Origin: Antarctobacter heliothermus
Lineage (GTDB): Bacteria; Pseudomonadota; Alphaproteobacteria; Rhodobacterales; Rhodobacteraceae
Assembly (NCBI RefSeq): GCF_900188425.1
Contig: NZ_FZON01000004.1
Location: 62,001-126,000 of the forward strand
DNA: 64,000 nt
Reading direction: 5' to 3'
The position numbers and the translations under genes are program-made. The notes under the pieces are model-generated. The model was not told the origin of the DNA. It worked only from the letters and a program-made list of their open reading frames with translations, and ran no database searches. The stretch's first letter is position 1, and the number at the start of each line of letters is the position of its first letter. Below, one piece after another: positions 49,414 to 64,000 of this stretch.

Positions 49414-50094
49414 TCAGCGGCGCAACACCTGCGATACTAGGTAACCCAGGTAGGGACCTGCCCATTGACGCCCGCTGAGGATATATCCATCGCCACCAAC
49501 AACATAGGTGTTGGTAAAGTCAGGAGAAACTCCGTCCGCTGCGGTACATTTGGCGGTCACGACCTGTCCGCTTGTTTGCACCAGCCCCCCGGCGACGGGC
49601 ACGGTGGCCCCAGTCGTTGTGTAACAGGAGTAGCGCCGGACAATGGTCACATCCTCAGGCGTCAGAAAGCGCAAGTCATAGCTTGCCCGTCCTTCAGAGC
49701 GGGCTTGCACGCGGTGCAAAAGTTGGTCTTCTTCGGACGACATCAGATCCCCGGCCAGACCACGGGTCGAGATGACCATGCCGTCACGCAGGACGACGAC
49801 CTGACGGGACGCGTTGCCGTAGGTCTGATAGGGTCCGTTGCGCTGAATGTCCTGTAGAAGGGTTTGCGACTTACGCGCCTCGATCTCGAACAGGAAAACG
49901 GAGCCGGTGGTCGCCCCCAAAGCTTGAGCAATTTGTTGTGTTGTCAGCGGCTTGGGTTGTGTCTTCTTGGCAAAGAGCGACTTGGGTATTTGCCGCATGA
50001 ACGCAGAGGTATCCTGGTTCGCGGTGCCGCAAGACACCAGCGCCAAAGCGGCGGTCAGGGCAAGGCCAATGCGTGTGAAACTGCGCAGGGTCAT
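49414..50094 (-). CDS. YjbF/GfcB-family lipoprotein
   Basis: The 226-residue protein has a lipoprotein signal (ALTAALALVSC). Its domain has GSVFLFEIEARKSQTLL, QVVVLRDGMVISTRGL and the ending DGYILSGRQWAGPYLGYLVS. This resembles the YjbF/GfcB group linked to group 4 capsule and the yjbEFGH operon of E. coli. It probably acts in the periplasm or outer membrane during polysaccharide export. Its start overlaps the YjbH stop by four bases. Confidence 0.82.
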   Translation of the reverse strand: MTLRSFTRIGLALTAALALVSCGTANQDTSAFMRQIPKSLFAKKTQPKPLTTQQIAQALGATTGSVFLFEIEARKSQTLLQDIQRNGPYQTYGNASRQVVVLRDGMVISTRGLAGDLMSSEEDQLLHRVQARSEGRASYDLRFLTPEDVTIVRRYSCYTTTGATVPVAGGLVQTSGQVVTAKCTAADGVSPDFTNTYVVGGDGYILSGRQWAGPYLGYLVSQVLRR

Positions 50095-52250
50095 CGCCAG
50101 AACCTTCCCCAGGAATTGACTGCGTCCGGTTTGTGGTAGTCCCGAACCTGTTCGTAGAGCCGTCCATTGACGTTCAGGCGCGCGCCGCCATCGCGTGACA
50201 GCGATTGGATAACCACGTCGTTGCGACGACGCGAGGGTTGGCCAAAGAAACTGGCCAGCGGCATGGTAAAGCGGATGCCCTTGTCAAATGACCCTTCGCC
50301 GAAGTCGTTGAAAGACGCGTCGGTGAATGTCGCGTATGCCCCGATGCGCCATCCGTTTGCGAACTCGCGATCAAGGGCAATTGTGCCACCGTAGTCGCCC
50401 GCCAGGTAGCGACCGACGTCAAGCTGACCGTGAAAACCGTTTCCAAAGGCGTAGTAGGCAGAGATGTGGCCGTTGACGTTCGGGATCTCACGCTTTGCCC
50501 CGGTAACTGGGTCGACGGTCGTCATTGACTGGAAGCCGAACAATTGGTCGAAGTCGCGCCGCTGGACATAGTTGACCTCGGCCCCAAGGGCGAGACGGCT
50601 GGTCACCGGCTTCCACAGCAATTCGGCGGAGAGGCCACCGTACATCTGTTCCAGATACCCCACGGTCACCCGTGAATAGACGTTTTTGGTGGGCCGTCCG
50701 TAATGCGCCAGCTGAAGATATTCGATCGCCGGATCGCCCTGGGCCGAATACTGGGCCTTGTCGGTGCGCACGCGCGGCAGGCTCGATTCATCGAGCCGCT
50801 TTACCTGATCAAGGTTGCCGTTAAGCTTTTTGGCAACAGAGCCGCTGAGGATCAGGCTGGGTGTGATTTCCAGTTCGGCAGCGGCGCGCACGCCGACATC
50901 AGCGCGCACGGGGTTGTCCGGATCAAAGACAGAAAGCTGGAGATAGGGAGAGACCGACCAAGTAAATTTCGGGTAGATGCCCTGATCCGGTGGCGGCGCC
51001 TGCTGAAAGCCGTCTTCGAAGACGGTCCGCGCCAGCATTTCGTTGGCGGCGTCATGCTCCAGCCGTTCAAGATCGGATCGACGGAAGGTGACAGAGGACA
51101 TCGCCATGCCGTTGACCACCGGCACAATCTCGAACACCTCGACCGATGCGGGCAGCGCACGGGTCATCGCCCGTGCCATGCGACCGAAGGCCTGCGAAGG
51201 CGCACCATAGCGCGGGTTGACCATACGGATGGTGACGCGATTGCTTTGCAGGTCGACGGCTTCGACCTCCAGCCCTTCCTTGGCGGCGAGCTGTTTCAGC
51301 GATGCTTTGGCGGACGTGGACCGCTGCGGGTCCAGCGTCCATCCCAGATCGGCAGCCGCACCGGGCGCGCGGGGCGCAACCGGAAGGCCGGATGGTTCTG
51401 AGCCACCGGGAATGCCGACCGTTTTGGGGTTGGTCACAAAGGTCAGTTGAGCGCCGATTTCGGTTCCCAGAATGTGATAAACCGACAGTTGGCCGCCATT
51501 TTTGAACCGGTAATCTACGCCAAAGTTCCACGGGCTGGTCTTGTCGAGGCCGCCAAGCTGCGCCTCGCGGGTGTAATTGTCCGAGGAGTATTCCAGTTTG
51601 AGGTTGAGCCGGTCGTTGGGGGCGTAGGACACCCCGCCAAATGCGGCTACATCGCCCCGAAAGAACCGATCAATCTCGGGCAGTCCGCCCGTTCCGGTAA
51701 AGCCGCCCGGTCGTGTCCCTGTTGTGGCAAAAGGACTGTACGACCCGTAGCGACCCCAGCCAAAACCGCCGGTGACCTTGAGTCCGGGGCTCAGCGTTTT
51801 GGTCGCGACAAGGTATTCCCCGCTATAAATGCCGGTTCCGATGAAATCCTTGAGACCAACGACAACCGAAGGTCGGCGGTCGGTTTCGGTCAGCAACTGA
51901 TAGCGCAGATCAAAACTGCGGTCGAAAAGCGTGGTTGTTCCGCCGCCAAGGAAGTTCTCGATCGCCGAATAGCGAAAGCTGCCCGACAAGCGCGGCAGGA
52001 TCTGGAAGTAGAGCGTTGAACGGGACGTGCCGTTCAGGTTGGCATAGGTTCCGGCAAGCGTCGCATCCGGCGGCACCTCTGCCGTGGGCATGTCAACCAG
52101 ACCGGGAGAGCCATACAGGTTAAAGGACACCCTATCCCGCACGTCTTCCGCATTCAGGGCCCCGCCCAGCGCGGTCAAGAAGGTACCCGCCAGCGCAACG
52201 CGCCGCACGAGGGCCGATTTTCTGTTTTGAAAACCCGGCATGGTCCCCAC
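50091..52250 (-). CDS. YjbH-domain exopolysaccharide protein, predicted outer membrane
   Basis: The 719-residue protein has an N-terminal signal (VRRVALAGTFLTALGGALNA, about 14-35) and then NLYGSPGLVDMPTAEVPPDA, the opening of the YjbH domain. The remaining sequence is beta-strand rich and ends in alternating aromatic strands typical of an outer-membrane barrel. YjbH proteins accompany YjbF and YjbG in exopolysaccharide export. The operon YjbH-YjbF is leftward and convergent with the epimerase-sugar transferase operon. Confidence 0.87.
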   Translation of the reverse strand: MGTMPGFQNRKSALVRRVALAGTFLTALGGALNAEDVRDRVSFNLYGSPGLVDMPTAEVPPDATLAGTYANLNGTSRSTLYFQILPRLSGSFRYSAIENFLGGGTTTLFDRSFDLRYQLLTETDRRPSVVVGLKDFIGTGIYSGEYLVATKTLSPGLKVTGGFGWGRYGSYSPFATTGTRPGGFTGTGGLPEIDRFFRGDVAAFGGVSYAPNDRLNLKLEYSSDNYTREAQLGGLDKTSPWNFGVDYRFKNGGQLSVYHILGTEIGAQLTFVTNPKTVGIPGGSEPSGLPVAPRAPGAAADLGWTLDPQRSTSAKASLKQLAAKEGLEVEAVDLQSNRVTIRMVNPRYGAPSQAFGRMARAMTRALPASVEVFEIVPVVNGMAMSSVTFRRSDLERLEHDAANEMLARTVFEDGFQQAPPPDQGIYPKFTWSVSPYLQLSVFDPDNPVRADVGVRAAAELEITPSLILSGSVAKKLNGNLDQVKRLDESSLPRVRTDKAQYSAQGDPAIEYLQLAHYGRPTKNVYSRVTVGYLEQMYGGLSAELLWKPVTSRLALGAEVNYVQRRDFDQLFGFQSMTTVDPVTGAKREIPNVNGHISAYYAFGNGFHGQLDVGRYLAGDYGGTIALDREFANGWRIGAYATFTDASFNDFGEGSFDKGIRFTMPLASFFGQPSRRRNDVVIQSLSRDGGARLNVNGRLYEQVRDYHKPDAVNSWGRFWR

Positions 52251-52473
52251 CTCGTTGCCACCTCTGTTTCACCGTACTTGCTACCGCCTTCGGATGGCCC
52301 TGTCCATTCGATGAGGCCGTACAATGGCCTGTTGTGTGAAAATCGGCACGCCTGTGCCGGGTTATCCACATGAGGACCCTTGTGTGCTGCTTTAACCGAA
52401 CATTTTTAATCGTTAAGCGCGTGGTAATCGGCGGCGGACTACACCTGTCTCGGGTGAGAGAAAGGTGGGAAAG
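52251..52473. promoter_or_regulatory. Divergent control region between the YjbH operon and the flagellar operon
   Basis: This 223-bp region holds promoters for both directions. It has TTATCCACA at 52362-52370, a perfect DnaA-box sequence, and three TTAA cores at 52392, 52406 and 52413 that could belong to CtrA-type sites. The TTAA spacings (10 and 3 bases) do not fit TTAA-N7-TTAA. Confidence 0.45.
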
Positions 52474-53310
52474 ATGAGTGGCGACAGCAATGTTGCGCCA
52501 GTCATCATCAAACGCAAGAAGATCATCGCGGCTGACGGGCATCATGGGGGCGCCTGGAAGGTGGCCTATGCCGACTTCGTAACCGCGATGATGGCCTTCT
52601 TCATGTTGATGTGGCTGCTGAACGCAACGACAGAAAAGCAACGCAAAGGTATTGCAGATTATTTCAGTCCGACCATCGCGATGGCGCGGGTCTCTGGCGG
52701 GGGAGCGGGGGCATTGGGCGGTGATTCTGTCTTTGCCGAGAATACCTTGCCGCGTGTGGGAACAGGGGCAACCAGCCTGAGACCACAGGCCGAGCGTACC
52801 AAGGATGATGCCTTTGACTCCAAAGATCCATCAAAGGACGGACCAGAGACCGACGAATTCAAGCAGGTCGAGGAACTCCTGATGGGTCGCGGCGGCGAAA
52901 GCATGGTCGCGGACGAACTGCTGGAACATATCGTGACAGAGGTCACCGATGAGGGGCTTGTGATCGAGTTCTTTGAGACAAGCCAGGCGCGCCTGTTCGA
53001 CGAATTTGCCGAACCGACGCCTCTGCTTGAGGATCTGGCATTGGTTCTGGCGCGCGCTTCAGCCGTGGTGACAAATCCGGTCGCGATCGAGGCGCATACC
53101 GCGGGTTATCCCGTTGTTCTTGCCGACAATCCAGCCTGGAAGGTGTCGCGTGACAGGGCCGAGGTTTTTCGGGAACTGGTTGTTGATCGCGGGCTGGATG
53201 CGCAACGCGTCCGGCGTGTGACGGCCTATGCCGACCGTGATCCCAAGGCTGAAAATGTTATGGACCCGAGAAACAGCCGGATAGAGGTGATTTTCCTGCG
53301 GAGGAACTGA
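52474..53310 (+). CDS. motB: Flagellar motor stator protein MotB
   Basis: The 278-residue protein has one membrane helix with the proton-channel aspartate, Asp34 in WKVAYADFVTAMMAFFMLMW. A linker (about 60-130) and an OmpA-like peptidoglycan-binding domain (about 150-275) with DNPAWKVSRDRAEVFRELV follow. With MotA it forms the stator ion channel. The Asp and conserved surroundings fit a proton-driven motor. The ATG at 52474 is preceded by AAGGTGGG. motA lies 5 kb downstream rather than adjacent. It heads the flagellar gene run. Confidence 0.9.
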   Translation: MSGDSNVAPVIIKRKKIIAADGHHGGAWKVAYADFVTAMMAFFMLMWLLNATTEKQRKGIADYFSPTIAMARVSGGGAGALGGDSVFAENTLPRVGTGATSLRPQAERTKDDAFDSKDPSKDGPETDEFKQVEELLMGRGGESMVADELLEHIVTEVTDEGLVIEFFETSQARLFDEFAEPTPLLEDLALVLARASAVVTNPVAIEAHTAGYPVVLADNPAWKVSRDRAEVFRELVVDRGLDAQRVRRVTAYADRDPKAENVMDPRNSRIEVIFLRRN

Positions 53311-56208: not shown

Positions 56209-57207
56209 ATGGAAGTCATCGGAGACATGGCGCGCGCCCTTGTGTTGCGCACCAACCAGGTGCGCCTGCGTGAGGAAATGGATCAGCTTGCGGTGGAGGT
56301 CTCGACGGGGTTCGTCCGGGACGCTGGCAAGCATCTGCATGGTGATTTGACCGGATTGCTGTCGATCGACCGCGCCCTTTCGCGGATGGACACCTACCGG
56401 GTCAATACCACCGAGGCCAGCTTTCTATCGGGGTCGATGCAAACGGCGCTCGATGAGATCCAGGGGCGGAGCGAAACGCTGTCGCAGTCGCTGATCGCGG
56501 CGGAGCTTACGCCAAACTCGGCTCTGCTGGGCACAATGGCTGACGATGCGGAAAATGCACTCAGCCAGGTGATGAACGGGCTGAACCGTTCCGTTGCCGG
56601 GCGTTTTCTGTTTTCTGGAACGGCGACAGACCGTCAGGCTGTCCAAAGCGCCGATGACCTTCTGGTGGATGTGCGCGGGGCGCTTGTCGGGCAGACCGAT
56701 ATGGCCGGTGTCGAGGCGGTGCTGAACACGTTCTTTGGTGCGGGCGGGACTTATGAGACAACAACCTACCAGGGGTCGAACACCGGGCTTGCACCACTGA
56801 AGCTGTCCGAGACTGAGAGCGCAAATCTGGATATCCGGGCAACCGATCCGGTCTTTCGTGAAGTGTTGAAACCCATGGTGATGGCAGCACTGGCGACCGA
56901 TGGCACGCTGGGGTTCGATCAGGACCTGCAAATCGAAATGCTGACCACTGCCGGGCAGGATCTGCTCGCCGCGCAACAGGATGTGGTCGAACTGCGCGCA
57001 GGTCTTGGCGCGCTGGAGGCGCGCGTCGAAGAGACAACAGCCCGAAACTCGGCGGAATTCACCGCCACGAATATCGCCCGGCTCGATCTGGTGGGGACCG
57101 ATCAGTACTACACTGCGTCCCGCTACGAAAACATCCGGGGTCAACTGGAAAGCCTTTACGCCATTACTGCCAGGTCCCAGCGCCTTTCCCTTGCGGAGTA
57201 TCTCTGA
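56209..57207 (+). CDS. flgL: Flagellar hook-filament junction protein FlgL
   Basis: The 332-residue flagellin-like protein has an N-terminal helix with ARALVLRTNQVRLREEMDQL and the segment NGLNRSVAGRFLFSGTATD, typical of FlgL. A C-terminal helix follows (AALEARVEETTARNSAEFT-like). It is the second junction protein. AAGGAGAC is just ahead of the start. Its stop overlaps the flgI start by one base. Confidence 0.88.
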   Translation: MEVIGDMARALVLRTNQVRLREEMDQLAVEVSTGFVRDAGKHLHGDLTGLLSIDRALSRMDTYRVNTTEASFLSGSMQTALDEIQGRSETLSQSLIAAELTPNSALLGTMADDAENALSQVMNGLNRSVAGRFLFSGTATDRQAVQSADDLLVDVRGALVGQTDMAGVEAVLNTFFGAGGTYETTTYQGSNTGLAPLKLSETESANLDIRATDPVFREVLKPMVMAALATDGTLGFDQDLQIEMLTTAGQDLLAAQQDVVELRAGLGALEARVEETTARNSAEFTATNIARLDLVGTDQYYTASRYENIRGQLESLYAITARSQRLSLAEYL

Positions 57208-58313
57208 TGTTTACACGTTTTTTCCTTTCGTTCTTCCTGACGCTGGCATTCGCTTTCCCGGCATCAGCCCAATCCGTCCGCATCAAGGATCTGGTTGAGG
57301 TCGATGGCGTCCGATCGAACGACCTTGTGGGGTATGGCTTGGTGGTCGGTTTGAACGGAACCGGTGACGGTTTGCGCAACTCGCCTTTTACCGAAGAAAT
57401 CATGTCGAACATCCTAGAACGACTGGGCGTGAATGTCACCGGCGAGCAGTTTCGCCCGCGCAATGTGGCGGCGGTGCTCGTGACTGGCAAACTTCCTCCG
57501 TTTGCGCGGATTGGTAGTCAGATCGACATCACGGTTTCAGCCATAGGTGACGCCAAAAGCCTGTTGGGCGGTACGTTGATCATGACACCGCTGAATGCTG
57601 CAGATGGCCAGATCTACGCCGTTGCGCAGGGCACCATCATCGCAGGTGGTGTCGAAGTCGAAGGTGAGGCAGCCCGAATCGTCCAGGGCGTACCGACCGC
57701 AGGTGTGGTTCCCTCGGGTGCCCGAATTGAACGAGAGATCGAATTTGACTTTACCCAACTGTCGACGCTGCGATTGGCTCTCCGCGAGCCGGATTTTACT
57801 ACGGCCGCACGGATAGAAGATGTGATCAATCGTTCCATCGGGCGGCGGGCGGCGACAATGCTGGATGCGGGAACGATCAGCGTGGACTTGCAACGTGCCG
57901 GGGCTGGGTCGCCGGCAAGGGCTGTCGTCGCGATCGAGAACCTGGCGGTTGAACCACAGCGCCGCGCGCGGGTGGTGGTCGATCAGAGATCGGGAACCAT
58001 CGTGATGGGTGCTGATGTACGGATCTCTCGTGTGGCGGTGTCCCAGGGGAACCTGACCCTGCGGATCGAAGAAGCCCCGCTGGCGATACAACCCAACCCG
58101 TTCAGTGACGGGGACACGGTTGTGGTGCCGCGCACCGGTGCCCTGATCGAGGAAGAACCGGGAATCGGTCTGGCCGAGGTTCCGACGGGTACAAATCTGT
58201 CAGAGGTCATCGCCGGTCTGAACGCTTTGGGCGTCAGTCCGCGGGACATGATCGACATTCTCAAGAGCATCAAGGCAGCGGGCGCTTTGCACGCGGATTT
58301 TGTGGTGATGTAG
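57207..58313 (+). CDS. flgI: Flagellar P-ring protein FlgI
   Basis: The 368-residue protein has a signal peptide (FLSFFLTLAFAFPASAQS) and the P-ring motifs RIKDLVEVDGVRSNDLVGYG, LVVGLNGTGD and NVAAVLVTGKLPPFAR. GTLIMTPLNAADGQIYAVAQ follows, and the C-terminus is LNALGVSPRDMIDILKSIKA plus AGALHADFVVM. It forms the periplasmic ring around the rod. Length is normal. Its start overlaps the flgL stop. Confidence 0.96.
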   Translation: MFTRFFLSFFLTLAFAFPASAQSVRIKDLVEVDGVRSNDLVGYGLVVGLNGTGDGLRNSPFTEEIMSNILERLGVNVTGEQFRPRNVAAVLVTGKLPPFARIGSQIDITVSAIGDAKSLLGGTLIMTPLNAADGQIYAVAQGTIIAGGVEVEGEAARIVQGVPTAGVVPSGARIEREIEFDFTQLSTLRLALREPDFTTAARIEDVINRSIGRRAATMLDAGTISVDLQRAGAGSPARAVVAIENLAVEPQRRARVVVDQRSGTIVMGADVRISRVAVSQGNLTLRIEEAPLAIQPNPFSDGDTVVVPRTGALIEEEPGIGLAEVPTGTNLSEVIAGLNALGVSPRDMIDILKSIKAAGALHADFVVM

Positions 58314-58382
58314 CGGTGCTGAAGAGGCTTTCTTAACGGCTGGCTGGCAGGCTGGCGACGGCAACGGATCGGGAGAGCGCAG

Positions 58383-59252
58383 ATGCTCGGAATCATTGGT
58401 ATCGTGGTAATTTTCGCCATGGTCTTCGGCGGCTACCTGGCGGCTGGAGGCAAGCTCGGGATCATTATCAAGGCGCTGCCGTTCGAGTTCATGATGATCG
58501 GGGGGGCCGCCACCGGCGCCTTTTTGATCAGCAACGACGGTGCCACAGTGAAACACACGCTCAAGGATGTGGCAAAGGTCTTCAAAGGGGCAAAGTGGAA
58601 ACCCGAGGACTATCGCGATCTGCTTTGCCTGCTTTTCGAATTGATCCGGCTGGCCCGACAGAACCCGGTCGCCATCGAGGAACATGTTGAGTCTCCGAAA
58701 GAGTCCAACATCTTTGGAAAGTACCCCAAGATCCTGGCAGATAGATACGCCATCGAACTGATCTGCGACACGATGCGGTCCGTTTCGATGAACTATGACG
58801 ATCCGCATCAGGTTGAAGAAGTCTTGGACAAGCGGCTTGACGGTATGCAGCATCACGCCTTGCATTCCAGTCATGCGCTGCAATCCATGGCGGACGCCCT
58901 GCCGGCCCTCGGGATCGTTGCGGCGGTTCTTGGTGTGATCAAGACGATGGCCTCGATCGACCAACCGCCGGAGGTTTTGGGCAAATTGATCGGTGGCGCG
59001 CTGGTCGGCACGTTCTTGGGCGTATTCTTAGCATACGGGCTCGTCGGACCGTTTGCGACCAAGGTCAAGGCCGTCGCGGAAGAGGATCTTCAATTCTATC
59101 ACCTGATCCGCGAAGTGCTGGTGGCCAATCTGCACAACCATGCAACCAACATCTGCATCGAGGTCGGGCGCCAGAACACACCAGACCACTTCCGACCGAG
59201 CTTTGAGGATCTTGAGGAAGCGTTGAAATCAGTCAAGCAGGATGCCGCATGA
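58383..59252 (+). CDS. motA: Flagellar motor stator protein MotA
   Basis: The 289-residue protein has four membrane helices and the MotA/TolQ/ExbB-type segment ADALPALGIVAAVLGVIKTM, followed by IGGALVGTFLGVFLAYGLV. It also has the GGYLAAGG start and the cytoplasmic loop with charged residues that contact FliG. With MotB it drives rotation. GGAGAGCGCAG lies before the ATG, after a 69-bp gap from flgI. Its stop is overlapped by the next gene. Confidence 0.95.
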   Translation: MLGIIGIVVIFAMVFGGYLAAGGKLGIIIKALPFEFMMIGGAATGAFLISNDGATVKHTLKDVAKVFKGAKWKPEDYRDLLCLLFELIRLARQNPVAIEEHVESPKESNIFGKYPKILADRYAIELICDTMRSVSMNYDDPHQVEEVLDKRLDGMQHHALHSSHALQSMADALPALGIVAAVLGVIKTMASIDQPPEVLGKLIGGALVGTFLGVFLAYGLVGPFATKVKAVAEEDLQFYHLIREVLVANLHNHATNICIEVGRQNTPDHFRPSFEDLEEALKSVKQDAA

Positions 59253-61522
59253 CTCGCTGGATTGTCTGGATGTTGATTGGCCTCTGGCCAACCCTTGCGG
59301 GGGCGCAAACAGTGACCGTGCGCAGCGGCGAACACGGGGATTTCACGCGACTTGTCCTAGACGTCCCTGACGGAACTGAGTGGGACCTGATACCTGATCC
59401 GAACGCCGCGCTGGTCACGCTTTCATTCGGTGGTGGCCCGTATGGATTTGAAACATCGACGGTTTTCAACCGGATTGGAACTGAACGGATCGCCGGGTTG
59501 ACGCCATCGGAAGATGGTCGCACGCTTGATATAAGGTTGAATTGTCAATGTGGAGCGGAAGCATTTGTTTTGAGAGGCACGATGCTGGTGATCGACATTG
59601 CGCCTTCTGATTCCCCGGCTCAACTGACGAGGTCCAGGGCTGTCCGGCAGGAAGCGGGGGCAGGGGATCCTGCCCAATCTCCATTGCTGCGCGAGTTTTC
59701 CCAGATCCGCTTCGGCGATGCACCGCAGATTGGACCTCAATCCAAGGGGACAAAAACTTTGCCCTTCTTGGCGGAACATGTGGCTTTGGATTTGGTGCCC
59801 TCCATCCTTGATCACCGGGACGGCGCCCCGTCTGCGTCACGCGATCTTGGCACCCGTCTTGCTGCAGACCTTGCCGTGGCGGCGTCGCAGGGACTTTTGG
59901 ACCCGGCACTCATGGCTCCGACAACGCCAACTCCGGTTGTCGATCGCCAACCCAAACCCGGGATTCCCGATGAATTGGCTGTCGATCCCGGCACGCTCGC
60001 AAGACGGCTTGCGGCGGGCATGTCAGGCTTGGATCATAAAACATTGCAAGATGGGCGGATTTCGGTTGGCGGTGAGGTCTGTGTCCGTGACCGGGATCTT
60101 GCAATTGGTTCTTGGTCAAATGCCGATGACGATCCCAACCTCGTTCTGGCCGAAAAACGTGGCAAGGTCTTTGGTGAGTTTGACAGGATCGGGTCACAGT
60201 TACTCCAACAATATGCCAAGTCGTTGCTGTACTATGGTTTTGGTGCAGAGGCGCGTGCTACCCTTGCCCTACAACCTGAAACGCAAGCCCCGATCCTTGT
60301 CGCTTTGTCATATGTCATTGACGGCGAACCGGATCCAACCGGTCTTTTTGATGGGCTGTCCGGATGTGATGGCGCAGCCGCGCTTTGGTCAGTCCTGTCG
60401 AAGCCTCCGGCGCCGGAAGCCCCAAAAATATCTTCCTCAGCTATCCTCCGCAATTTTGAGACACTTCCCAAACATCTAAGGTCTCATTTGGGACCTAGGC
60501 TGGTCGATCACTTGTCCCGATCCGGCTACACCAACGTCGCGCGAGACGTTTTGCGCCGCTTGCAGCGCATGGAAGGTGGCGAAACCGACAGTATCGCTTT
60601 GGGAAAAGCGCAACTTGCGCTCAAGGACGGACGACATGGCGAAGCGGAAAAACGCCTGCACGATCTTTCCGTTGCTGGCGGACCAGAAGCGGCAAAGGCT
60701 GTCGCTGCAGCAATTGAACTAGCGGACGCGACCGATACACTGGTACCCGCGCGAATTGTCGAATTGTCCGACGCTTTTGCTACCGAACTGCGCAACACTC
60801 AGGATGGCCAGAAACTCTGGAAGTCACACGTTCGGTCGTTGCTGATAAATGGTGCGTTCGACGCGGCCTTTGCGGAATTCGACTCGCCGCACGGAATGCC
60901 ACCTGATGTCGTCGCATTCATGAAGCAAGTCGCCCTGAAGTTTCTTGTGGAGAAAGCGGATGACTTGGCATTTTTGAAGCTGGCAACGCGGTCGCTTGCT
61001 GACGGCTTGCTGCCTGATCAACCCGCGACTGGAATCAGCATTGCAGAGCGTTTCCTGTCTCTCGGCCTGCCTGAAACTGCCCTTGAACAATTGGACGCAA
61101 TGCCCGACGCAAACAGCCTGCCCGAGTCGCGCACAACCAGGGCTGCGGCGCTTCTTGCCTTGTCGCGACCCGAAGAGGCCGAGATCATCCTCATTGGGCA
61201 GCGCGGTGATAGGGTTGTCCGCTTGCGTGCCGAGGCGCGTCGCCAGATGGGTGACCATGTGTTTACCAAGGCCATCTACGAGAGCATTGGCGATGGCCCC
61301 GCAGCTGTGGACGCTGCCTGGTTATCCGGCGAATGGAAGGAAGTCGCCGAAAGTGACACTGTCCTCGCACCGGCAGCGGACCTCATGCAAACAACTCCGG
61401 TCGCATTTGAACCGTCGGAGCTGAGCCTTGCCGCTGCAAACGCACTTTCTGCGGCCAGCGCACAATCGCTGGAGACGCTGCGTGCGCTTCTGGATGCAAC
61501 GGCCGTTCCAGCTGGCGACTGA
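59249..61522 (+). CDS. Predicted periplasmic protein of the flagellar locus, 757 aa, unknown function
   Basis: The 757-residue protein has a signal peptide (MTRWIVWMLIGLWPTLAGA, cleavage near residue 19). An N-terminal beta-rich domain (about 20-120) reads TVTVRSGEHGDFTRLVLDVP and RTLDIRLNCQCG; its wording resembles AMIN-type domains. A Pro/Asp-rich linker leads to an alanine- and leucine-rich helical region (about 390-750) with TPR-like stretches such as LALSRPEEAEIIL. Cysteines occur at 99 and 101 and later in EVCVRD. It overlaps motA by four bases (ATGA), so it is co-translated with the stator subunit. A role in motor function or stator assembly is an inference from position. I do not recognise a named family. 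Confidence 0.85.
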   Translation: MTRWIVWMLIGLWPTLAGAQTVTVRSGEHGDFTRLVLDVPDGTEWDLIPDPNAALVTLSFGGGPYGFETSTVFNRIGTERIAGLTPSEDGRTLDIRLNCQCGAEAFVLRGTMLVIDIAPSDSPAQLTRSRAVRQEAGAGDPAQSPLLREFSQIRFGDAPQIGPQSKGTKTLPFLAEHVALDLVPSILDHRDGAPSASRDLGTRLAADLAVAASQGLLDPALMAPTTPTPVVDRQPKPGIPDELAVDPGTLARRLAAGMSGLDHKTLQDGRISVGGEVCVRDRDLAIGSWSNADDDPNLVLAEKRGKVFGEFDRIGSQLLQQYAKSLLYYGFGAEARATLALQPETQAPILVALSYVIDGEPDPTGLFDGLSGCDGAAALWSVLSKPPAPEAPKISSSAILRNFETLPKHLRSHLGPRLVDHLSRSGYTNVARDVLRRLQRMEGGETDSIALGKAQLALKDGRHGEAEKRLHDLSVAGGPEAAKAVAAAIELADATDTLVPARIVELSDAFATELRNTQDGQKLWKSHVRSLLINGAFDAAFAEFDSPHGMPPDVVAFMKQVALKFLVEKADDLAFLKLATRSLADGLLPDQPATGISIAERFLSLGLPETALEQLDAMPDANSLPESRTTRAAALLALSRPEEAEIILIGQRGDRVVRLRAEARRQMGDHVFTKAIYESIGDGPAAVDAAWLSGEWKEVAESDTVLAPAADLMQTTPVAFEPSELSLAAANALSAASAQSLETLRALLDATAVPAGD

Positions 61523-61707
61523 CCTATCCTTACGGTTTCTAAACAGTTCTGGCCTACCCAATAAGGTATGAAAAACTGAATGGAGAGGCCAGGAAATGGC
61601 GCAGGTCCACAATCGGCAGAATGCCGACCCGACCCGGACGCTTCAAACGTCATCGCGGCACAGCAAGTGGGATCGGAAAACTCCGGCAACTAGGTCAGGG
61701 TGCGTTC

Positions 61708-61725
61708 CAAGGTTGGGAAACCTTG
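61708..61725. terminator. Hairpin between the 757-aa gene and flhA
   Basis: CAAGGTT (61708-61714) and AACCTTG (61719-61725) pair across a GGGA loop. There is no T-tract. It is a possible 3'-end or regulatory structure for the upstream operon. Confidence 0.35.
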
Positions 61726-61753
61726 CCCTTCATGTCCGGCCCTTCATGTCCGG
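61726..61753. repeat. 14-bp perfect tandem repeat (two copies)
   Basis: CCCTTCATGTCCGG occurs twice head to tail with no spacer (61726-61739 and 61740-61753), directly after the hairpin. The biological meaning is unknown. Confidence 0.8.
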
Positions 61754-61950
61754 TCCAAGTTTTCCGCGCTTCCGGTTTATGCGTCACCGATAAAATTTAC
61801 GTCAAATTCCATCCGCCAGCACCCATCCGCCCTGATCAATAATCAACGCACCGCACCGGTCATCGGTCGAGAAATCATCGGCACTACAACCTGCAACATT
61901 GAACGGCCATCAAACCGCCGACGTCTGGCGTGACAGCGAGAAAGCAGCCC

Positions 61951-64000
61951 ATGTCACCTTCAAGCCTCTTCAAACCGACGATCCTGATGGCGCTCGCGCT
62001 AATGGCGGTGATTGTCATGATGGTTTTGCCCGTACCCTCCTGGGTACTGGATGTCGGTCTGGCCGCGTCCTTTGGTCTTGCAATTCTGATCTTTACGGTC
62101 ACGCTTTTTATCGAACGCCCGCTGGATTTTTCCGCATTTCCGACAATCCTTTTGACCTCGCTGATGCTGCGGCTGTCGCTCAACGTCAGCTCTACCAAGT
62201 TGATCATTGGTCAGGGGCACACCGGCACTCATGCGGCCGGTGAGGTAATCGAAGGTTTCGCCAATTTTGTCATGGGCGGCAGCGTTTTTCTGGGCCTTGT
62301 TGTCTTTGGCGTGCTGATGATCGTGAACTTTGCCGTGATCACCAAAGGTTCGGCACGCATGGCCGAGGTTTCGGCCCGCTTTGCGCTAGACGCGATGCCG
62401 GGAAAACAATTGGCCATCGATGCGGACATGTCGGCCGGAGCCATCGACCACGCAGAAGCCAAGCGCCGTCGTGAAACCGAACAGCAAGAGACAACCTTTT
62501 TCGGATCTCTCGACGGGGCGTCGAAATTCGTCAAGGGCGACGCAGTTGCCGGCCTTTTGATTACCATATTGAATCTTGTCATGGGGATCATCATGGGCAC
62601 CGTGATGCACGGTATGCCGCTGAGCAGCGCGCTTGAGACCTATGCCATCCTGACCGTTGGTGACGGGCTGGTATCTCAGATCCCGGCTGTGATCATTTCG
62701 ATTGCGGCAGGTCTCTTGCTGGCGCGTGGCGGGTCCACCGGCGCGACGGATGTCGCGGTTGCAGCCCAACTCGGGCGGCATCCCTCGGCGCTTTTGGCGG
62801 TTGCAGTGCTGATGGTGCTTTTTGCGCTGGTTCCAGGCCTGCCTTTTGTGCCCTTCATTCTTGGCGGCGGGGTTCTTGGCGGGACAGCATGGTGGTTGTC
62901 CAGACGTCCTCCTGAAACAGAAGACAGCACAGACACCACCGAGGAAGAGCCCGGGCCGCCCGTTCAGCATATGGGAGACGTTCTTGATCTGGACGACATC
63001 CATGTCGAGTTTGCACCCGATCTGGTCAATATGGTGCTGGATCCGGGCACCGGGCTGGACGTCAGAATTGCCAACATGCGGCGGCATATCGCGTCGCATT
63101 TCGGCCTCGTCCTGCCAGAAATCCGGCTGACGGACGCCCCTTCCTTGCCGACCGGCACTTATGTGATCCGCATCCACGGGGTCGAAATGGCGCGGGGTGA
63201 GTTGAATCCCGACTTCGTTCTTGCACTCTTGCCGGAGTTCAGCGGTGCCCTGCCACAGGGACGTGACGTTACTGAACCAGTCTACGGCGCGCCCGCACGC
63301 TGGTTGCGGCCCGAGGATCAGGAAAAGGCAGCGATCACCGGAGCGACAATCGTTTCACCAACCGAAGTGCTGGCAACCCATCTGCTGGAGGTTATCCGAC
63401 GCAACTTTGGCCGCCTTCTCACGTTGAAGGCGTTGCGCCGTCTACTGGATGAAATGGTTTCTCTCAGCAACCAATCTCGGGCCGAAGCAAATCGCAAGCT
63501 TCTGGATGAGCTGATCCCGGACAAGGTGCAGATCGATACTCTGCTTCAGGTGCTACGTCTGTTGTTGGATGAACAGGTTTCAGTGCGCAACCTGCCGTTG
63601 ATCCTTGAGACAATTGCCGAAATGCGGGGCCAGCAATCTCAGGCCGAAGCCATCTGTGAGCATGTGCGCCAGCGGCTTGGTTTTCAGCTTGTGGCTGGGA
63701 TGCGGCGTGACGACGGGACGATTCCACTGGTGCAGCTTGCCCCGGAATGGGAAGAGACCTTTTTGTCCTATCAGGTCGAAAGCAGCCAAGGGGCGCTGGA
63801 TGTGGCGCTGCCGCCGGACAAATTCGAGGCGCTCACCAGCGGTTTGGCTGATACCATCGGCGAAGCAGCAAACCGGGGCGTTTCTGCCGCTGTGGTCACA
63901 TCTGCCCGACGCAGAAGGTTTCTGCGTACGGTCATGGTTGCCAAGGGCCTCAGCAATCCCGTCATGTCCTATGAGGAAATCGGGCTTGAGGCACGGCCCG
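61951..64000 (+). CDS. flhA: Flagellar export gate protein FlhA (truncated by window edge)
   Basis: The frame starts at ATG 61951 and is still open at base 64000, giving 683 residues. It has about eight membrane helices in the first 320 residues with the FHIPEP-family motifs: LMLRLSLNVSSTKLIIGQGH, NFVMGGSVFLGLVVF, MAEVSARFALDAMPGKQLAI, DADMSAGAID and GLVSQIPAVIISIAAGLLL. The cytoplasmic domain follows with YVIRIHGVEMARGELNPD, HLLEVIRRN and the VSVRNLPLILETIAE segment. It forms the export gate of the flagellar type III system. A start at 61987 is an alternative. Confidence 0.96.
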   Translation, partial: MSPSSLFKPTILMALALMAVIVMMVLPVPSWVLDVGLAASFGLAILIFTVTLFIERPLDFSAFPTILLTSLMLRLSLNVSSTKLIIGQGHTGTHAAGEVIEGFANFVMGGSVFLGLVVFGVLMIVNFAVITKGSARMAEVSARFALDAMPGKQLAIDADMSAGAIDHAEAKRRRETEQQETTFFGSLDGASKFVKGDAVAGLLITILNLVMGIIMGTVMHGMPLSSALETYAILTVGDGLVSQIPAVIISIAAGLLLARGGSTGATDVAVAAQLGRHPSALLAVAVLMVLFALVPGLPFVPFILGGGVLGGTAWWLSRRPPETEDSTDTTEEEPGPPVQHMGDVLDLDDIHVEFAPDLVNMVLDPGTGLDVRIANMRRHIASHFGLVLPEIRLTDAPSLPTGTYVIRIHGVEMARGELNPDFVLALLPEFSGALPQGRDVTEPVYGAPARWLRPEDQEKAAITGATIVSPTEVLATHLLEVIRRNFGRLLTLKALRRLLDEMVSLSNQSRAEANRKLLDELIPDKVQIDTLLQVLRLLLDEQVSVRNLPLILETIAEMRGQQSQAEAICEHVRQRLGFQLVAGMRRDDGTIPLVQLAPEWEETFLSYQVESSQGALDVALPPDKFEALTSGLADTIGEAANRGVSAAVVTSARRRRFLRTVMVAKGLSNPVMSYEEIGLEARP

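Follow-up and report, generated by a model that had tools for sequence, protein, structure and literature searches.

A motK-type gene coupled to motA in Antarctobacter heliothermus and its relatives across the Alphaproteobacteria

The locus and the layout of the encoded protein

The DNA analysed here comprises 64,000 nucleotides of Antarctobacter heliothermus (RefSeq assembly GCF_900188425.1, contig NZ_FZON01000004.1, positions 62,001 to 126,000 of the forward strand) and is called the window throughout. It carries a run of genes in the order motB-flgE-flgK-flgL-flgI-motA-motK, with motB at its head and flgE, flgK and flgL assigned by profile; the coordinates of the features discussed are collected in Table 1. 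The motK frame starts with ATG and continues uninterrupted for 757 codons to its stop. Its ATG overlaps the motA stop as ATGA (bases 59249-59252), in accordance with the initial annotation, where a 757-residue gene overlapping the end of motA by four bases and lying before flhA had been noted. Between motK and flhA there is a gap of 428 bases (61523-61950), too short for the usual lytic transglycosylase gene; in Phaeobacter inhibens sltF is located at this place. At the other end of the run, exopolysaccharide genes yjbF and yjbH (PF11102, PF06082; window 49414-52250, minus strand) are divergent from motB and adjoin it, with a Poly_export gene, a sugar transferase and an epimerase nearby. The exact CtrA box TTAAN7TTAA was not found anywhere in the window. 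Candidate CtrA-like half-site pairs with 7 of 8 bases occur at 52413-52427, 5' of motB, and on a second contig of the same genome (L046, 9079-9093), 5' of fliL.

Table 1. Genes of the window and parts of the MotK protein considered in this study
Feature	Position in window	Strand	Basis
motB, probable MotK partner	52465..53310	+	PF13677 above cut-off, PF00691 slightly below
flgI, directly 5' of motA in the window's clade	57207..58313	+	PF02119
motA, stator subunit, 4-base overlap with motK	58383..59252	+	TIGR03818 above cut-off; PF20560, PF01618
motK (CP4) coding sequence, 757 residues, stop included	59249..61522	+	open reading frame; family by genome searches
signal peptide, residues 1-19 (approximate)	59249..59305	+	by eye: MTRW, hydrophobic core, LAGA/Q
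AMIN-like beta domain, residues 20-119	59306..59605	+	AlphaFold2 model; AmiC match
linker, mostly disordered, residues 120-279	59606..60085	+	low pLDDT
TPR-like helical solenoid, residues 280-715	60086..61393	+	AlphaFold2 model, fold searches
flhA, end beyond the window	61951..64000	+	PF00771 over nearly full length, extended locus

The signal peptide that had been proposed was accepted by eye from the sequence, and the first 45 residues are, again by eye, similar in kind across 30 related sequences. These 30 sequences (alignment A3) are the window protein and the 29 next best from the 207 matching genomes of the order described below; the window protein with its 29 relatives also served as input for an AlphaFold2 model (mean pLDDT 80.2, pTM 0.59). 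In this model residues 20-119 form nine strands with block pLDDT of 87-93, and the structure program VIA-align superposed AmiC (4bin) on the model with Z 11.9 and rmsd 2.4 over 103 residues (model range 19-312). The N-terminal part of AmiC is an AMIN domain, and the AMIN-like beta domain assigned at first reading is thus borne out. pLDDT falls below 50 over most of residues 133-275, a stretch predicted to be mostly disordered from about 130, and across the 30 aligned sequences the linker is between 122 and 195 residues long. Helices span 281 to 750, so the TPR-like helical region is indeed present; it begins, though, about 110 residues earlier than residue 390, which had been given as its start. 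Residues G27, H29, F32 and R34 are invariant in all 30 aligned sequences, as are C278, just before the solenoid, and C373, and the pair C99-x-C101 is found in 29 of them. Conserved cysteines of this kind were rejected as a family-wide feature, since each of the 20 long relatives from outside the order has none or one.

Occurrence and gene order in the Rhodobacterales

Whole-genome search gave a match to the window protein in 207 of 292 genomes of the order, representing 95 of 113 genera; the 85 genomes with no match had been taken in regardless of flagella. In this search, as in that of the class, three candidates at most were scored per genome, and a miss is not proof of absence. Gene order was read in the best 80 of 293 confirmed loci, named loci hereafter, among which the nearest to the window is that of Mameliella (60 per cent identity in the best segment). 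motA stands directly 5' of motK in all 80, and in 79 of these the start codon overlaps the motA stop, by four bases in 69 loci and by one base in 10; the single remaining locus reads TAG-CG-ATG, with the ATG as putative start. With matches in 207 of 292 genomes and with motA at the same side in every named locus, the motA-motK coupling is not a matter of chance, and the coupling on which the earlier reading had laid weight proves to be conserved in related genomes.

The commonest arrangement, fliF'-fliL-pflI-motE-motA-motK, was seen in 62 of the 80 named loci; in Phaeobacter marinintestinus (L117) it continues into flhA. The arrangement of the window, flgL-flgI-motA-motK-flhA, is shared by 14 others. 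The last four show motA-motK with none of the upstream genes sought: three (L084, L092, L104) are short contig pieces and the fourth belongs to Salipiger pallidus (L091). Plasmid records held one distant relative (Paroceanicella), informative on gene order. One record titled Enemella evansiae, of the Actinomycetota (L050, JAFKDC010000001.1), carries flagellar genes in a run of Roseobacter type, including a 45 per cent MotK, and is probably mislabelled or contaminated.

In the window the complete fliL-pflI-motE-motA-motK operon is therefore not present as one unit, flgI preceding motA. The genes fliP-N-H-F and fliL-pflI-motE of this genome are placed on contig C79 (L046 5772-10691) and not between flgI and motA (57207-59252). 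Its MotE gene, at G000:C79:35085, is recognised by MgtE_N above the cut-off (27.9 vs 25.9); against FlbB it stays far below the cut-off (E 8.9e-8, 32 of 110 bits). In a FastTree phylogeny of 81 MotK proteins, rooted at the midpoint, the 14 flgI-motA loci, the window and L091 make up a clade of 16 with support of 0.999, of which L091 has a different neighbourhood. The simplest reading is that a single rearrangement in this clade separated motE from motA-motK, and the split operon is a derived arrangement of genes, not a property of the MotK protein. A second, different separation was found in L040, where fliL-pflI-motE and motA-motK are about 8 kb apart on opposite strands. Because motA-motK stays unbroken in both separations, it can be argued that the tight unit is the stator gene together with motK.

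Relatives across the class and database searches

Across 337 genomes of the class, the profile of the 30 sequences found 130 with a match; 126 of these belong to orders other than that of the window, and beta-domain matches reach down to E 2.4e-20. Among the matches listed, most frames from those other orders have 1000-1400 residues, and the best matches fall on the beta domain, often twice in tandem. Twenty class loci (L137-L156), which are among the stronger of the 126 matches, were read, and each has a motE-type gene 5' on the same strand. From 103 genomes with a listed MotK place, 13 with no listed MotE place were set aside; in 82 of the 90 pairs that remain, motE and the motK homologue lie within 8 kb on one contig when the best match is taken. 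The number becomes 83 if the second-listed match of G306 is counted (a 1366-residue frame beside MotE, the best match being a 401-residue frame elsewhere on the contig), and in the other seven pairs the two genes are on different contigs. CheY-like genes between motE and the homologue form a pattern in 11 loci, with PF00072 confirmed in the one given to Pfam. Nine MotB-like frames from seven loci outside the order were compared with PF13677: seven reach the cut-off and two are below it, so that a confirmed MotB-plug gene is located just 5' of the homologue in six of the seven loci. Two loci carry such genes in pairs directly before the motK homologue, with both above the Pfam cut-off in L155, and with one above and one just below it in L142.

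The TPR parts were aligned profile against profile by hhalign (99.9 per cent, E 1.8e-32, 406 columns), and part of this solenoid alignment may be generic TPR likeness. Since the beta domain matches separately and the gene context agrees, homology with MotK is the better reading of the sequences of these long class-wide proteins. Of the 20 long relatives, all but L150 carry the motif GxHxx[FY]xR[LIVM], and five of these 19 have it twice. The model built for one of the long relatives (mean pLDDT 76.9, pTM 0.47) has AMIN-like domains at 28-121 and 128-222; the linker after them is disordered to about 424, and a third beta region at 428-607 precedes a solenoid that starts at 638.

According to PMC12363192, the conserved proteins CP1-4 are absent outside the Rhodobacterales, and PMC10954123 reports no BLAST similarity between motK and the Caulobacter gene CC_2058. 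For CP4, the published confinement to one order is contradicted by the class-wide profile matches. We tentatively suggest that MotK could be what the Rhodobacterales keep, in shortened form, of a single ancestral stator spoke of the Alphaproteobacteria, traceable by sequence through the class. In such an ancestor two tandem AMIN-like domains (GxHxx[FY]xR) would have been followed by a long linker, then by a third beta region and a TPR solenoid, and the gene would have stood beside motE and a stator gene (motA here, a MotB-type gene elsewhere); the number of beta domains may set the stator position. The class-wide sequence link is a modest new point, the orthologue itself being ordinary.

Searched as a single sequence, the window protein gave nothing above cut-off in Pfam and NCBIfam, and thus no profile of a known non-flagellar family claimed it. 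Two weak Pfam names (E 0.16 and 0.25) were taken as chance. The Pfam TPR models did not match the window protein itself, and a single-sequence search of the PDB sequences returned nothing. Profile A3 found two PDB sequences, taken as chance; profile A4 found mostly generic TPR chains together with PilQ (E 2e-4 and 2.7e-3), and no motor-scaffold chain was among the profile matches to PDB sequences up to E 1. By structure, the first rank of Foldseek among 350,542 chains was 9hmf_K of the Campylobacter jejuni motor scaffold, both for the window protein (E 3.4e-7, the next at 1.9e-4) and, by a narrow margin, for the long relative (E 2.1e-9, the next at 3.8e-9). The 9hmf_K matches have TM-scores of 0.14-0.19 (0.19 for the window protein) and rmsd of about 35, and are followed by unrelated TPR proteins, closely so for the long relative; with TM-scores this low, they speak for a comparable architecture and not for close structural agreement. 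For both models, the lists from VIA-align consist mostly of unrelated TPR proteins, 9hmf not being among the rows listed. Chain 9hmf_K has 773 residues, equal to residues 16-788 of PflA if the length of PflA is, as we assume, 788. On account of this length and of the domain description in PMC12222027, 9hmf_K is taken here as PflA.

The matches to AmiC and PilQ could be read as the mark of a protein with a general cell-wall role whose only tie to motA is the shared operon, and AMIN domains are found in amidases and secretins. This reading is scarcely credible, as FlgI accompanies the MotK match in 119 of 130 class genomes, as motK remains with motA when the operon splits, and as mutants of the counterparts in C. 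sphaeroides, P. inhibens and Caulobacter are immotile by the published accounts. MotE is present alongside 118 of the 130 MotK matches. Against a role of MotK in the motor together with MotE stand 12 MotK-positive genomes with no MotE match, 63 MotE-positive ones with no MotK match and 81 FlgI-positive ones with no MotK match.

Identity, probable role and known counterparts

The gene is assigned as motK on its order, on the architecture of its product and on published descriptions. MotK was described in 2024 for the Fla2 flagellum of Cereibacter sphaeroides (PMC10954123), in a gene order of the fliF-fliL-pflI-motE-motA-motK type. As described there, it is encoded after motA and has, like the window protein, a signal peptide, an eight-strand AMIN-like N-terminus, a proline-rich middle of low confidence and a helical, TPR-like C-terminal part; it is 652 residues long against 757 in the window, whose genome keeps motE on another contig. 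In the same report periplasmic MotK binds MotE and MotB2, MotE is unstable if MotK is missing, the protein sits at the flagellated pole, its localisation requires MotA2/MotB2, and the flagella of a motK mutant do not rotate. The initial annotation had called the protein unrecognised and its layout foreign to any standard flagellar protein. Neither statement can be kept: MotK has the same layout and position, CP4 of P. inhibens the same position, and PflA of Campylobacter the same order of parts.

CP4 (PGA1_c35690) was described in 2025 as essential for motility in P. inhibens (PMC12363192). Like the window gene it stands between motA and flhA in a cluster of the same type, with the difference that sltF precedes flhA where the window has its gap. 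In Table 1 of that paper the locus tags run fliF, CP2, CP3, motA, CP4, sltF, flhA, with the tag of fliL between fliF and CP2. By gene order the names of separate papers can be joined, CP2 being PflI, CP3 MotE and CP4 MotK; the word MotK is absent from the main text of PMC12363192, and no statement that CP4 is MotK was found in the literature searched. This identity explains why a "conserved protein" of the Rhodobacterales is essential for swimming. The motor-related periplasmic role, tied to the stator, that had been suggested from the sequence is upheld.

The exoproteomes of the CP1-4 mutants are read in PMC12363192 as different stages of assembly, and fewer proteins are reported outside the CP4 mutant, which would suit a protein that helps stator or rod parts to assemble, as a chaperone or assembly factor, and has no permanent place in the motor. 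This is very unlikely: the non-motile CP4 mutant still releases FliC, FlgK and FlgE, thus flagellin and hook proteins (PMC12363192), MotK of C. sphaeroides is found at the flagellated pole (PMC10954123), and Caulobacter fssB mutants bear filaments (PMC7885107). In P. inhibens the CP3 (MotE) mutant shows no flagella, and FlgH is all that it releases (PMC12363192), which disagrees with the C. sphaeroides motE mutant, listed as flagellated in Table 1 of PMC13023049. In its Results PMC12363192 places filament and hook proteins outside the CP1 and CP4 mutants, and the late-acting proteins of its Discussion are CP1 and CP3, which may be a slip.

In Caulobacter, CC_2058 (FssB) is described with a signal peptide, an AMIN-like start and a TPR region, and its gene adjoins the MotE-type gene CC_2059 (PMC7885107, PMC10954123); its likeness to the window protein is drawn from these descriptions. 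Mutants of CC_2058/fssB are reported to have filaments, to be paralysed like motB mutants and to lose stator-dependent signalling (PMC7885107). The E-ring review PMC13023049 and the C. jejuni preprint PMC11870540 propose MotK, MotC and CC_2058 as PflA-like and MotE as the E-ring protein, the link of rhizobial MotC being made in PMC13023049.

It is probable that MotK is a bridge between the MotE E-ring and the stator, and that the orthologue in the window acts as MotK does elsewhere. The product would be exported to the periplasm, where its C-terminal TPR-like solenoid would point inward and contact the E-ring that MotE forms around the MS-ring. On its flexible linker, the AMIN-like domain at the N-terminus would extend outward to the periplasmic part of MotB and possibly to peptidoglycan. 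By recruiting or holding stator units at the rotor, MotK would enable rotation. The spoke geometry of this proposal is borrowed from PflA, and the need of MotK for MotA2/MotB2 in its localisation is as compatible with a part carried by the stator as with a fixed spoke.

The protein might instead be a peptidoglycan anchor carried by the stator, with its AMIN-like domain attached to the wall and its TPR part holding MotB open, and with no fixed spoke to the E-ring. The closeness of the AMIN-like fold to that of AmiC speaks for such an anchor, as does the dependence on MotA2/MotB2 in C. sphaeroides, for which the authors put forward anchoring to the wall and an opening of MotB (PMC10954123). We consider it unlikely, because MotK binds MotE and stabilises it (PMC10954123) and because in PflA the same kind of domain, with its loop, is reported to bind a protein, PflB. 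For the bridge between E-ring and stator, the present profiles offer a sequence handle on a component which the E-ring preprint calls unconserved in sequence and traces by structure and TPR content. The alphaproteobacterial link of E-ring, spoke and stator is therefore testable in ordinary laboratory strains.

A further counterpart is PflA of C. jejuni, described in PMC12222027 with a beta-sandwich at the N-terminus, then an unstructured linker and 16 TPR motifs. At the sequence level, the profile search of PDB sequences gave no match between PflA and the window protein. They are alike in the order of their parts, that is, signal peptide, AMIN-like beta-sandwich, unstructured linker and TPR superhelix (PMC12222027), and in its own motor PflA meets the E-ring protein FlgY and works with PflB (PMC12222027, PMC11870540, PMC13023049).
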